Positions 14,074 to 19,969 of a stretch of 33,661 bases of DNA are shown here, piece after piece; within the stretch, counting starts at the first letter, position 1; each line of letters begins with the position of its first letter. Location: positions 1 to 33,661 of the forward strand of contig JAILLO010000075.1 of assembly GCA_024693105.1 (NCBI GenBank), given 5' to 3'. This stretch comes from Clostridia bacterium (GTDB lineage Bacteria; Bacillota; Clostridia; Peptostreptococcales; Anaerovoracaceae). Both the position numbers and the translations under genes were made by a program. The notes under the pieces were generated by a model. It was given only the letters and a program-made list of their open reading frames with translations, was not told the DNA's origin and made no database searches.

Positions 14074-14430
14074 ATGTCAAACGATGAAATGCTGGACGTA
14101 CTGGCGGAATGGGGTGCAGACGTTAGTAATGCGATGAAATCCATGCTGGACGACAAACAATTTTATAGAGACTGTCTTAACAAGCTTTTTGCCGATCCTT
14201 CCTTTTCACTTCTCGGGCGCCAGCTGAAGGCGGGAGATTTGGACGGGGCCTTTTCAAGTGCGCATATGCTCAAAGGCATCACAGCAACACTGGGGCTTAC
14301 GCCTATCAGCAAACCGATTTATGAAATTGTTGAGATTCTGAGAAAGAGAGAATCCGAAGGAACAGAGGATCTTTACAAGCTTATTTCCGAAAGGCACAAG
14401 GAACTTGGGAAAATCCTGAGTGAAGAGTAG
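14074..14430 (+). CDS. Stand-alone HPt (histidine phosphotransfer) domain protein
   Basis: A 118-residue helical protein with the HPt signature AHMLKGITATLG; H64 is the expected phospho-accepting histidine, followed by the conserved LKG and a glycine five residues on. HPt proteins relay phosphate between hybrid kinases and response regulators. No kinase or regulator gene is in the window, so the partner must be encoded elsewhere. AAGGAGGAT at 14062-14069 and a near-consensus promoter indicate good expression. The gene ends 4 bp from the convergent GIY-YIG gene without a clear terminator between them. Confidence 0.8.
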   Translation: MSNDEMLDVLAEWGADVSNAMKSMLDDKQFYRDCLNKLFADPSFSLLGRQLKAGDLDGAFSSAHMLKGITATLGLTPISKPIYEIVEILRKRESEGTEDLYKLISERHKELGKILSEE

Positions 14431-15619: not shown

Positions 15620-17098
15620 TTATATGCGGCCGCTTTCAAGGAGATTAATGTGCTCTTTTATTGCCCTAATAACATTTTCTTTTCCTACAATCGTATTCGG
15701 GGTTTTTCTTTCTTTTCTGTATTCAATCGAAGTCCAGAAGGCATCAAGCAGCACTTTTTCCTCGCTGAAGAGAAGATTGTTGCTCAAAGCCTGATTAAGC
15801 AGCAGAATGCTGATATTCTCCTTTATGAGAATGCAAGGGTCTTTTGGCGTCGGATCTGCAATTCTGACACTGTAATTATCATACTTTTCCAGCATCAAAA
15901 CAGTGTTTTTCAAAATATCGATGTAATCCTGCGGCGTTACGTAAGGTTCGCGGCTGCCCTGAATGATTGAATAAAAAGGTGCGTGTGTCGCAAGTTCTTC
16001 ACGTGAAAAAAGAGGGAAAATATCAAGAAAACAGTACTTTTGAAGGTTTTCAAGGCTTATCGCTCTGTCATGCGCAAGAACATTCAGGGTCGACGGCTTC
16101 CGGTACAGATTCGTGAGGTTTTTCGCAACGGATTCCGGGAAGAACGCCGTATATGGAAAGAAATCCCTGCGCACTGTATTTGCAGGGGCCGGTATTATAT
16201 TTTCGCTGTAATAACCGAGGAAGTCGGTTATTGTCAGCTGGCTGTAAACATTGAGAAGCGGTCTGCAAAAGTTGAGATGATTGCGGAAATCGGATATTGC
16301 AGTCTGAATCGCATATTTATCCTTTGTCAGCATGGAAAAACCGCTGTCATGTGTAGTTGCGACCGAATGCGAAAAGACAAAACCGCTCTTTGCGGCGATG
16401 TATGCGGATGCTTTGTGAATTTCCTCTCTGAATTTCGGATAGTAAAACGGTGACACCTTTTCCGACAAAAAGAAAGGAAGCCAGTTTTTAATTTCTTCAA
16501 CTATCTCGTTTGAATTTTTGTTCAGGCGGTGCAGGCTGATAATCGGATTGCCGCGTTTCACCGCTTCAAGAAGCATCGAATCGAATTTTGCCCAAAAGAG
16601 CGAATCCTCCTTAAGCCAGGCAAGATCCTCTTCGTCTGCTATATAAAGAGGCTGAGGCTTTGGATATTCAAGTACATCCGCAAGAAGCGACATAATTACC
16701 TTTCTACGCCCTTCGTTTCCGTAATAAAGCTGATATGTCGAGGCTGCCTTTCCCGCTGAATTCTGAAAGGGAGCGCCTGCTTTTTTAAAAGAAATCTGGG
16801 CTTCGTCATCATTGCTTTTCAGCCACTTGTAAATTATATCCGCCATAAGACTTTCTTTTTCGGACCATTCGCCGTCGAGCTTCAGGGCGTCCATAATAAT
16901 CTTTTTCTGATAATCGTCCTTAACCCGCTTTGTCAGGTAAACGGCCATAGGCATAAGGAAGTTCTGACTTTGCGGAAGCTTTCTGCCGCCGTGACGCAGA
17001 CGGCTTATATGCGAGGCATCAAGTGAAACTGCACTTGCGAGTGTACTGTTTTTTGTATTTGTTACATCCATAAGAAAATTCAGCTTGTCGGAAAACAT
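15620..17098 (-). CDS. Large HTH-type putative regulator of unknown family
   Basis: A 492-residue protein. Residues about 8-60 look like an XRE-type helix-turn-helix (LASAVSLDASHISRLRHGGRKLP). The remaining 430 residues are mixed helical sequence without a signature I can name; there is no visible membrane segment, ATPase or sensor motif. AAAGGAG lies 6 nt before the ATG. The promoter has a perfect TTGACA inside a 19-bp palindrome, so it may control its own expression. Its stop is 51 bp before ylmH, and read-through is possible. A role as transcription factor is inferred only from the N-terminal domain and the site in front of it. Confidence 0.7.
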   Translation of the reverse strand: MFSDKLNFLMDVTNTKNSTLASAVSLDASHISRLRHGGRKLPQSQNFLMPMAVYLTKRVKDDYQKKIIMDALKLDGEWSEKESLMADIIYKWLKSNDDEAQISFKKAGAPFQNSAGKAASTYQLYYGNEGRRKVIMSLLADVLEYPKPQPLYIADEEDLAWLKEDSLFWAKFDSMLLEAVKRGNPIISLHRLNKNSNEIVEEIKNWLPFFLSEKVSPFYYPKFREEIHKASAYIAAKSGFVFSHSVATTHDSGFSMLTKDKYAIQTAISDFRNHLNFCRPLLNVYSQLTITDFLGYYSENIIPAPANTVRRDFFPYTAFFPESVAKNLTNLYRKPSTLNVLAHDRAISLENLQKYCFLDIFPLFSREELATHAPFYSIIQGSREPYVTPQDYIDILKNTVLMLEKYDNYSVRIADPTPKDPCILIKENISILLLNQALSNNLLFSEEKVLLDAFWTSIEYRKERKTPNTIVGKENVIRAIKEHINLLESGRI

Positions 17099-17424: not shown

Positions 17425-18840
17425 ATGGCGTTTGGTTTTTTCAGGAAAAATGAAAGTGCGGATCTTATTATAAGGGGCGGCACAATATGCACACTTGATG
17501 CAGATCTGCCATATGCGGAGGCGGTTGCCTGCAAAGACGGCATTATTATCGGAGTCGGAGACGAAGAGGATATCGCGGAATTCGAAGGAAAGGCCACCGA
17601 GATCATAGACCTTGAAGGAAGCTTTCTCGTGCCGGGATTTATCGATACATGCGGACATCCCGTAAGCAGGTGTTTTTCGGGAATGGGAAATATTCTTTCG
17701 GACCCTTTTGATCTTGACACGGTTCTCGGTGAGATTACAACTTATGTCGATGCTCATCCCGAAGAAGAATATTACTTCTTCAGAGGCTATGATGAGGTGA
17801 TTCTCAAAGACAAAACGACGGAGGAAACAAGGGCGCTGCTTGATGAAATTACCGATGAAAAGCCGGTTGTTGTTATGGGCGAAAGCGGTGTGCACTGCTG
17901 GTTCAATACATATATGCTTGATATGGCAAAAGCAGCGGCAGAAGAGGAAGAGATGCCTGTAATTACGCTGTCGTATCTTATTTCGCTTATTGAGCCTTTT
18001 GATTATGACGAGCTTCGGCGCAATGTCATTGAAATAGCAAAAGACTATTGCTCAAGAGGTTTTACTTCTGTTTTTGACTGCGGTTCGCCGGATTTCTTTG
18101 ATTCTGTTTATCAGGAAATCCTGATGGGAATGTTTAATGAAGACATGAGCAAGCAGCGTTATTTCGGCGCACTTCTTGTAAACCGGGATTTTAATCCTGC
18201 TGCAATTACATATAAGCTTTCACAAAAGCGCACGGCCTGCATGGAACTTGACGGTATTTTCAATTTCAACACGCTTACGGTCGTTCTCGACGAAACTTCA
18301 AAGGGAAGCCGCATATCGCAGGAGTCTGCGGAAAAGATTATTGCAGAGGCTGCGGAAAGAGGCTTTGACATATATGTGGAGGCAAAGGGTGAAGATATGG
18401 TCTTTGAAGCTCTTGCCGATTTAAGGAATTTGAGAAATGCCGGCTGTAAAAAAAATATTTTCACGATAGCTTACGACGGTGAGATAGAAACAGACGAAGA
18501 TCTTGATTTTGAAGAGGATATCTTCGAAACGGTTTCAACGCTTGACAAGGACAAAGATTTTGCTGTTTTGGACAGTGCGGGTTCTGTGGAAGAAGCCGTG
18601 GACCTTCTGACTTCGGCCGCAGCAATCCAGCTTGGAGCATTTGACAGACTGGGAAGTATCGAAAAAGGAAAATGCGCGGATTTCGCCGTTTTCAAAACAA
18701 ATCCTCTTGAGGCTCCGGGCGTTGCCGCGCTGCGCAATACAGAGGCCGAAATGACAATTATGAACGGACGCGTTGTCTATGACAAAGAGGAAGACGAGGC
18801 CTCAAAATGGTATGCGATGATGGCTTCGGGCATATGCTAG
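17425..18840 (+). CDS. YtcJ-like amidohydrolase with altered metal-binding residues
   Basis: A 471-residue member of the amidohydrolase 3/YtcJ fold: an N-terminal DLIIRGGTICTLD, PGFID at 70-74, an HCWFNTYML segment near 157 and a C-terminal LGSIEKGKCADFAVF plus MNGRVVY barrel. The usual metal ligands are largely gone. The HxH motif reads C76-G-H78, the HAIGD histidine is E319 (EAKGED), and the IEHxQ histidine region reads FTIAYD. The protein is therefore either inactive or uses different chemistry. AGGAG lies 9 nt before ATG 17425. It stands alone, closed by a terminator. Family is sure; activity is doubtful. Confidence 0.8.
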   Translation: MAFGFFRKNESADLIIRGGTICTLDADLPYAEAVACKDGIIIGVGDEEDIAEFEGKATEIIDLEGSFLVPGFIDTCGHPVSRCFSGMGNILSDPFDLDTVLGEITTYVDAHPEEEYYFFRGYDEVILKDKTTEETRALLDEITDEKPVVVMGESGVHCWFNTYMLDMAKAAAEEEEMPVITLSYLISLIEPFDYDELRRNVIEIAKDYCSRGFTSVFDCGSPDFFDSVYQEILMGMFNEDMSKQRYFGALLVNRDFNPAAITYKLSQKRTACMELDGIFNFNTLTVVLDETSKGSRISQESAEKIIAEAAERGFDIYVEAKGEDMVFEALADLRNLRNAGCKKNIFTIAYDGEIETDEDLDFEEDIFETVSTLDKDKDFAVLDSAGSVEEAVDLLTSAAAIQLGAFDRLGSIEKGKCADFAVFKTNPLEAPGVAALRNTEAEMTIMNGRVVYDKEEDEASKWYAMMASGIC

Positions 18841-18848
18841 AAAATTAA

Positions 18849-18910
18849 GCCGGATAATAACCGGCACGCCCTCAAAGAGGCTGCAGGCACAGCTTTTGTG
18901 AGGGCTTTTT
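18849..18910 (+). terminator. Terminator after the YtcJ-like gene
   Basis: GCCCTCA (18868-18874) pairs with TGAGGGC (18899-18905), with an inner GCTG/CAGC stem, followed by five T. A smaller GCCGG/CCGGC hairpin (18849-18865) precedes it. Confidence 0.8.
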
Positions 18911-18985: not shown

Positions 18986-19012
18986 TAAAGTTTTTAAGGC
19001 CGGTGCCGATAA
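18986..19012 (+). promoter_or_regulatory. Consensus sigma-28 (SigD/FliA) promoter
   Basis: TAAAGTTT (18986-18993), 11 bp, GCCGATAA (19005-19012). This matches the enterobacterial FliA consensus at every specified base and the SigD pattern TAAA-N15-GCCGAT. It faces the unknown gene starting at 19206; transcription would begin near 19018. Confidence 0.8.
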
Positions 19013-19205
19013 AAGATGAAAGGGTCACAGGAAGCGGCGCAAAAGCCCGAAAAGAAGACCCCGAAAGAGAGAATCAGAAAAATTATCCCGGTTATGAGCA
19101 GCGGTTTTCCGAAAAAGGCAGCCGGTTTGCAGGAGGCAAAGTCCCCGGCAGGTCGCGATAAGTCCTCAAAAAGAAATACAGCTGCAGTACAGAAAGGAGT
19201 ATCAT
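19013..19205 (+). other. Long leader of the sigma-28-driven gene
   Basis: About 190 nt between the promoter and the ATG. Short open frames cross it, but none has a ribosome site and they run into the real gene in another frame, so no CDS is called. Several GC-rich short inverted segments occur (around 19100-19160), but no riboswitch class is recognised with confidence. Confidence 0.4.
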
Positions 19206-19865
19206 ATGCCTATTTCATCAGTAACACAGGTACCTTCACAGGTAGCGGTAAAATCAGCAGACTATGCAGCATCGAGCATTTCCGAAGCGAAAGAGCAGTC
19301 AAGCGAAGTCGCAACCGAAATGGTAAAGGACGTCGTTAAAAAGGACGAATTTGTCAGAAATGACTCACAGGGTGGCGTAACCACATACAGCAACACGGGA
19401 AAACTGACGGCAGACCAGGTGGGAGCACTGAAAAACAGTCAGATTGAGTCATACAAGAATTTCATTTCAAACATGTTCCGCGATCAGATGAAGAATTTCT
19501 CGGGTTCGGTAAACATGAATTTTTCAATGGAGTTCAGTTTTTCGATGGAGATTACCGCAACACAGGAGGCTTCTGCGGAAGCCAAGGATGACCCTTGGAG
19601 CGTTGATTCTGTGGCTACAAGAATTATGGACATGGCGATGGCGCTTACAGGCGGGGATTCCTCAAAAATTGACCTTATGAGGCAGGCGGTTGAAGACGGT
19701 TTTAAGGCTGCGGGCCTTGAATGGGGATCGGAGCTTCCTGACATCAGCAATCAGACTTACGACGAAATAATGAAGCGCTTCGAATACTGGGAAAAGAACG
19801 GAAGCCTTGATAATTACGTTATGTCGGATGAACCGGCAGAAACGGCAGCGGTATCTGCAGAATAA
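19206..19865 (+). CDS. Unknown protein, probably in the sigma-28 (motility) regulon
   Basis: A 219-residue soluble protein without signal peptide or membrane segment. The N-terminal 80 residues are Ser/Ala/Val-rich and polar. A methionine/phenylalanine-rich strand (MNFSMEFSFSMEI, about 103-115) follows. The C-terminal part is helical, with a conserved-looking GFKAAGLEWGSELPDISNQT segment and then YDEIMKRFEYW. It vaguely resembles DUF5610-type proteins, but I cannot confirm this. AAAGGAG lies 5 nt before the ATG. The consensus sigma-28 promoter 190 bp upstream suggests expression with flagellar or chemotaxis genes, none of which are in the window. A strong terminator follows. Function unknown. 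Confidence 0.8.
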   Translation: MPISSVTQVPSQVAVKSADYAASSISEAKEQSSEVATEMVKDVVKKDEFVRNDSQGGVTTYSNTGKLTADQVGALKNSQIESYKNFISNMFRDQMKNFSGSVNMNFSMEFSFSMEITATQEASAEAKDDPWSVDSVATRIMDMAMALTGGDSSKIDLMRQAVEDGFKAAGLEWGSELPDISNQTYDEIMKRFEYWEKNGSLDNYVMSDEPAETAAVSAE

Positions 19866-19930: not shown

Positions 19931-19969
19931 CTGAAAACTGCAGCCTCCCCGCTGCAGTTTTCAGTTTTT
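19931..19969 (+). terminator. Terminator after the sigma-28-driven gene
   Basis: Perfect 14-bp stem (19931-19944 with 19951-19964), CTCCCC loop, then five T. Confidence 0.9.

Follow-up and report, generated by a model that had tools for sequence, protein, structure and literature searches.

A lone gene for a 219-residue protein in a clostridial genome (Clostridia bacterium, family Anaerovoracaceae, assembly GCA_024693105.1) appears to be a real and conserved member of the sigma-28 (FliA/SigD) motility regulon, detached from the flagellar clusters, and its regulon membership is well supported by comparison of sequences. We consider it quite likely that this regulon member plays an accessory role at the filament stage. 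Three lines of evidence, the promoter, the gene neighborhood and the co-occurrence with flagellin, connect a widespread family of uncharacterized proteins with the flagellar program. Detached FliA-dependent genes are already known as a kind; what is new is a testable assignment for this family. Cluster-based annotation can easily overlook genes that are detached in this way. Throughout, the window denotes the entire 33,661-nucleotide stretch that was analyzed (contig JAILLO010000075.1).

A sigma-28 promoter upstream of a lone gene

An earlier note on this DNA, made from the sequence alone, had asserted that the sigma-28 consensus is matched at all specified bases 5′ of a single gene, with a strong ribosome-binding site and a terminator, in a window devoid of flagellar and chemotaxis genes. 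All these observations hold. The site TAAAGTTTTTAAGGCCGGTGCCGATAA, of the form TAAAGTTT-N11-GCCGATAA, is located on the forward strand 5′ of the gene for the 219-residue protein and agrees with the regulon consensus (TAAA, a 15-nt spacer and GCCGATA(A/T)) at every position. The tar promoter of Escherichia coli, TAAAGTTTCCCCCCTCCTTGCCGATAAC, a mapped FliA promoter, is of the same form (PMC4183435). The features of the region are as follows.

18868-18910, forward strand: hairpin followed by a T run; arms 18868-18874 and 18899-18905, identified by inspection only, the loop being too long for the scanner
18986-19012, forward strand: predicted sigma-28 (FliA/SigD) promoter; -35 element TAAA at 18986-18989, 15-nt spacer, -10 element GCCGATAA at 19005-19012
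19018-19205, forward strand: predicted 5′ leader of about 190 nt, its start placed from the promoter position
19193-19199, forward strand: ribosome-binding site AAAGGAG, read in the sequence, ending 6 nt 5′ of the ATG
19206-19865, forward strand: open reading frame (ORF) of 219 codons with an ATG start, from the ORF list
19602-19799, forward strand: conserved C-terminal helical bundle (codons 133-198), from alignments and predicted structures
19931-19969, forward strand: intrinsic terminator with a perfect 14-bp stem, a 6-nt loop and a T run, from the hairpin scan

The promoter lies 220 nt 5′ of the start codon. The preceding amidohydrolase gene ends at 18840 and is probably terminated by the hairpin and T run that follow it, and the next gene downstream, encoding RNase HI (PF00075), begins past the terminator of the gene under study, which can thus be read as a monocistronic unit. 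An ORF of 107 codons at 19016-19339 was rejected as a gene because it begins 5′ of the predicted transcript start. The leader is no more structured than shuffled sequences (z -0.26), and an Rfam search of the whole window matched no element. The predicted fold contains a small hairpin, UUUGC-AGGAG-GCAAA, at 19126-19140 on the forward strand, about 65 nt 5′ of the start codon, with GGA in the loop; speculatively, it could be a candidate CsrA-type site, and csrA is encoded in the genome.

Inspection of the window ORFs revealed no flagellar or chemotaxis gene. Elsewhere in the window, a lone Hpt-domain protein (PF01627) is encoded at 14074-14430, with no evident phosphorelay partner in the window, and a 492-residue protein without a Pfam match is encoded on the reverse strand at 15620-17098.

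SigD, flagella and sigma-28 sites in the source genome

The sigma factor and the flagella expected of a sigma-28 regulon are both encoded in this genome. A profile search identified SigD/FliA (234 bits against a cut-off of 189.6) along with four flagellin-type matches, one of them FlgL, and a set of flagellar export, hook, motor and chemotaxis genes, named by eye, is present on other contigs. Pfam confirms FliA, FlgM (38.9 bits, cut-off 25), FlgN, CheA, FliD, FliS, FlhA and FlgE.

Whether the promoter match is rare by chance, as the earlier note had it, depends on how the site is defined. The complete site is present a single time in the window and absent from all 100 shuffles of it, and the 16-base form TAAAGTTT-N11-GCCGATAA is found at only two of the nine core sites in the genome, those of flgM and of the window gene. 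In contrast, the 11-base core itself, TAAA-N14-16-GCCGATA, is close to the chance level, with 9 sites in 1.9 Mb versus 6 for the reversed control pattern, so that the core match alone is weak evidence. The core sites with a 15-nt spacer include those 5′ of flgM, cheA, a gene for a YjfB-type protein and the window gene, and fliD has a site with one mismatch 52 nt upstream; no obvious target gene could be assigned to others of the nine core sites, such as those on contigs C51, C63, C85 and C97. The YjfB-type putative motility gene (L001:1591-1794; 68 residues, PF14070), with its exact core site at L125:10897 on contig C23 of the same genome (G000), is possibly another detached member of the regulon.

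Conservation of the promoter among homologs

What decides the matter is the conservation of the promoter 5′ of homologs. These came from a further 15 genomes of the family, from named genomes that were scanned and from 32 other genomes of the phylum; for each of 50 homologs, the best match to TAAA-N15-GCCGATA in the 300 nt upstream was scored, with dinucleotide shuffles as the control. The site is retained far above the chance level: it is exact in 14 of the 50 (shuffle mean 0.005, largest 1), deviates by no more than one mismatch in 20 (mean 0.23, largest 2) and by no more than two in 29 (mean 2.93). The 50 sequences are related, so that the counts are not independent events, but the aligned proteins are only 21-33% identical to the window protein. 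In the family to which the window belongs, 9 of the 15 homologs have the exact site, mostly with the extended TAAAGTTTTT. The exact sites in the relatives lie 43-122 nt 5′ of the start codon, compared with 220 nt in the window, and about 40% of the homologs have no recognizable site even when two mismatches are allowed. The homologs of two culturable species, Acetoanaerobium noterae and Halanaerobium polyolivorans, are preceded by imperfect sites.

These counts bear on the possibility that the promoter match arose by chance, for which one could invoke the 9 core sites against 6 in the control, as well as the binding of E. coli FliA to many sites inside genes (PMC4183435). With 14 exact sites upstream of homologs and an intergenic location 5′ of a lone gene in the window, this explanation is highly improbable. 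The conserved site points instead to transcription of the gene by SigD.

A distant relationship to DUF5610

The window protein matched no family in Pfam, NCBIfam or PHROGs. The hint at DUF5610 (PF18433) in the earlier note stands for its distant relatives, not for the protein itself, which does not match this profile at E-values up to 1. L028, a homolog that a search with the window protein retrieved at E 3e-17, scores 30.8 bits on DUF5610 against a cut-off of 26.4, and 11 of 23 relatives match it at E-values up to 0.5. By this sequence evidence, the window protein is a distant relative of the DUF5610 proteins.

In an AlphaFold2 model, residues 1-67 are predicted to be disordered and residues 69-98 to form a helix, from which a disordered linker leads to a helical bundle at 133-198 that is predicted with confidence. 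In the alignments, conserved residues are concentrated in the bundle, and the disordered N-terminal tail is little conserved. A sequence search found no solved structure for the window protein, and Foldseek yielded no match at E ≤ 0.001; the highest VIA Z, 8.6 for a designed helical repeat, is within the usual range for helical bundles. The window protein contains no cysteine, whereas many homologs have at least one. It is not matched by the FlgM profiles PF04316 and TIGR03824, and searches with other export families gave no significant match. A resemblance of some N-termini in the family to FlgM was rejected, the relatives reaching only E 0.18-0.31, which is not significant.

Flagellar neighborhoods and co-occurrence with flagellin

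In seven other genomes, the homolog is located in or near late flagellar clusters, with the following arrangements.

Halanaerobium polyolivorans (L067): flgK-flgL-fliC-flaG-x-x-[gene]-fliD-fliS
L101: fliD-fliS-x-x-[gene]
L102: flgM-flgN-flgK-flgL-x-csrA-x-[gene]
L115: gene beside flgB/flgC and fliC
L100, L103 and L112: gene about 1-7 kb from fliC

Small flanking genes for coiled-coil or FlgN-like proteins recur in some of these neighborhoods; the FlgN-like gene adjoining the homolog in L115 matches below the cut-off. The small coiled-coil genes near the homolog are at L100:8862-9110, L102:9141-9377 and L067:5022-5707, and two of them show similarity to a portion of the N-terminal helical region of flagellin, again below the cut-off (E 2e-4). 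Furthermore, a homologous pair of helical-looking proteins of about 120 residues, without a convincing Pfam match, is encoded next to the family gene at L102:7917-8285 and L103:8503-8868.

Among 149 genomes of the family, 33 encode flagellin, 16 carry the gene and 11 have both (Fisher p 3e-5, phylogeny ignored). In a sample of 398 genomes of the phylum, 322 of which encode flagellin, all 33 carriers of the gene encode flagellin (p 7e-4, phylogeny likewise ignored). Many flagellated genomes lack the gene, which accordingly is accessory. Five carriers in the family are without a detected flagellin (G007, G061, G093, G117 and G142). FliA and FlhA are present in G007, and the other four assemblies, 80-90% complete, showed no flagellin, no FlhA and no FliA above the cut-off. 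Two of these, G061 (L029) and G117 (L030), which are 84 and 90% complete, have the exact promoter 5′ of the homolog despite the missing flagellar markers, which may reflect a recent loss of genes or contigs absent from the assemblies; G093 and G142 have a degraded promoter.

Taken together with the conserved promoter, the SigD and flagella of the genome, and the location of homologs in flagellar clusters elsewhere, this co-occurrence argues for a detached member of the motility regulon, as the earlier note had proposed. The two tests by which the note said its proposal could fail, on sigD and motility genes in the genome and on the promoter of orthologs, were both carried out, and the proposal withstood them. 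It could still be asked whether the gene has no part in motility and was merely recruited to the regulon, as has been reported for flxA of E. coli (PMC4183435). Its detachment in the lineage of the window, its absence from many flagellated genomes and its presence in the four assemblies where neither flagellin nor FlhA was detected would all fit such a scenario, which we nevertheless regard as unlikely given that elsewhere the gene is part of late flagellar clusters and that flagellin accompanies it in 33 of 33 carriers in the wide sample.

A possible filament-stage accessory protein

We favor the reading that the gene, as a monocistronic unit, belongs to the late (class-3) part of the sigma-28 motility regulon. 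Once the hook-basal body is completed and FlgM is gone, SigD would transcribe it along with flgM, fliD, cheA and the gene for the YjfB-type protein. The product, with its flexible N-terminal tail and conserved helical bundle, would be a filament-stage accessory protein, a role suggested by the neighborhoods described above. It would be handled by the late export machinery as a filament- or cap-associated or a released substrate, the tail serving as the export signal. Export through the flagellum is the more tentative part of this proposal, somewhat short of an even chance. That the tail is predicted to be disordered, that the window protein has no cysteine and that export-chaperone-like genes lie nearby is compatible with export; the cysteines in many homologs and the lack of significant matches to FlgM or other export families speak against it.

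We rate nearly as highly, and thus as a serious possibility that still falls below even odds, an accessory role in the cytoplasm, where the protein would be a chaperone or a regulator of late assembly or of chemotaxis and the motor, made under SigD and hence present only while flagella are being built. The all-helical predicted domain, the FliS and FlgN-like genes among the neighbors and the cysteines of many homologs are in keeping with this role; the long disordered tail with its poorly conserved sequence is not, and no chaperone family was matched. The protein might also be a second FlgM-like anti-sigma factor or a secreted regulator with feedback on SigD, considering that its promoter is the same as that of flgM, that it combines a disordered tail with C-terminal helices and that two members of the family give a weak alignment (E ~0.3) with the N-terminal portion of the FlgM model. 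We consider this very improbable: the alignments to FlgM fall short of significance, the conserved helical domain shows no match to it, and the genome already has an FlgM.

If the filament-stage role with export applies across the family, DUF5610-type proteins of Clostridia and Halanaerobium could be a widespread, as yet unassigned class of sigma-28-dependent flagellar accessory proteins, each with a disordered tail and a helical bundle, that leave the cell through the flagellum and act in the filament or in the surroundings of the cell. We put this generalization forward tentatively, as one that may well fail.

Relation to known systems

DUF5610 (PF18433), a family whose function is not known, shares with the window protein the C-terminal helical region and is matched by its homologs, although not by the window protein itself. 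A literature search returned no paper that mentions DUF5610, and its link to sigma-28 and flagella appears to be unreported in the literature searched. Keyword searches for the family also returned nothing from the parts seen of a Clostridioides difficile promoter map (PMC7438776) and of a Roseburia/Eubacterium motility survey (PMC3720852).

The YjfB-type gene of the same genome is similar in that it is small, its function is poorly known and an exact sigma-28 core site precedes it; its 68-residue product, however, belongs to another family. In Campylobacter, the flagellar apparatus exports non-flagellar proteins (PMC2764114). If the window protein is exported, it would share with these the combination of an N-terminal signal and flagellar export, but there is no known sequence relation between them, and export of the window protein is a candidate property only. 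A precedent for the arrangement of the gene is found in E. coli, where flxA, ves, ynjH, yhjH and ycgR are known as detached FliA-dependent genes (PMC4183435). Like the window gene, these lie apart from the classical flagellar clusters, singly or in operons, and have promoters of the TAAA-N15-GCCGATA type (PMC4183435). Their proteins are not known to be related to the window protein, whose relatives, unlike the E. coli genes, are embedded in flagellar clusters.
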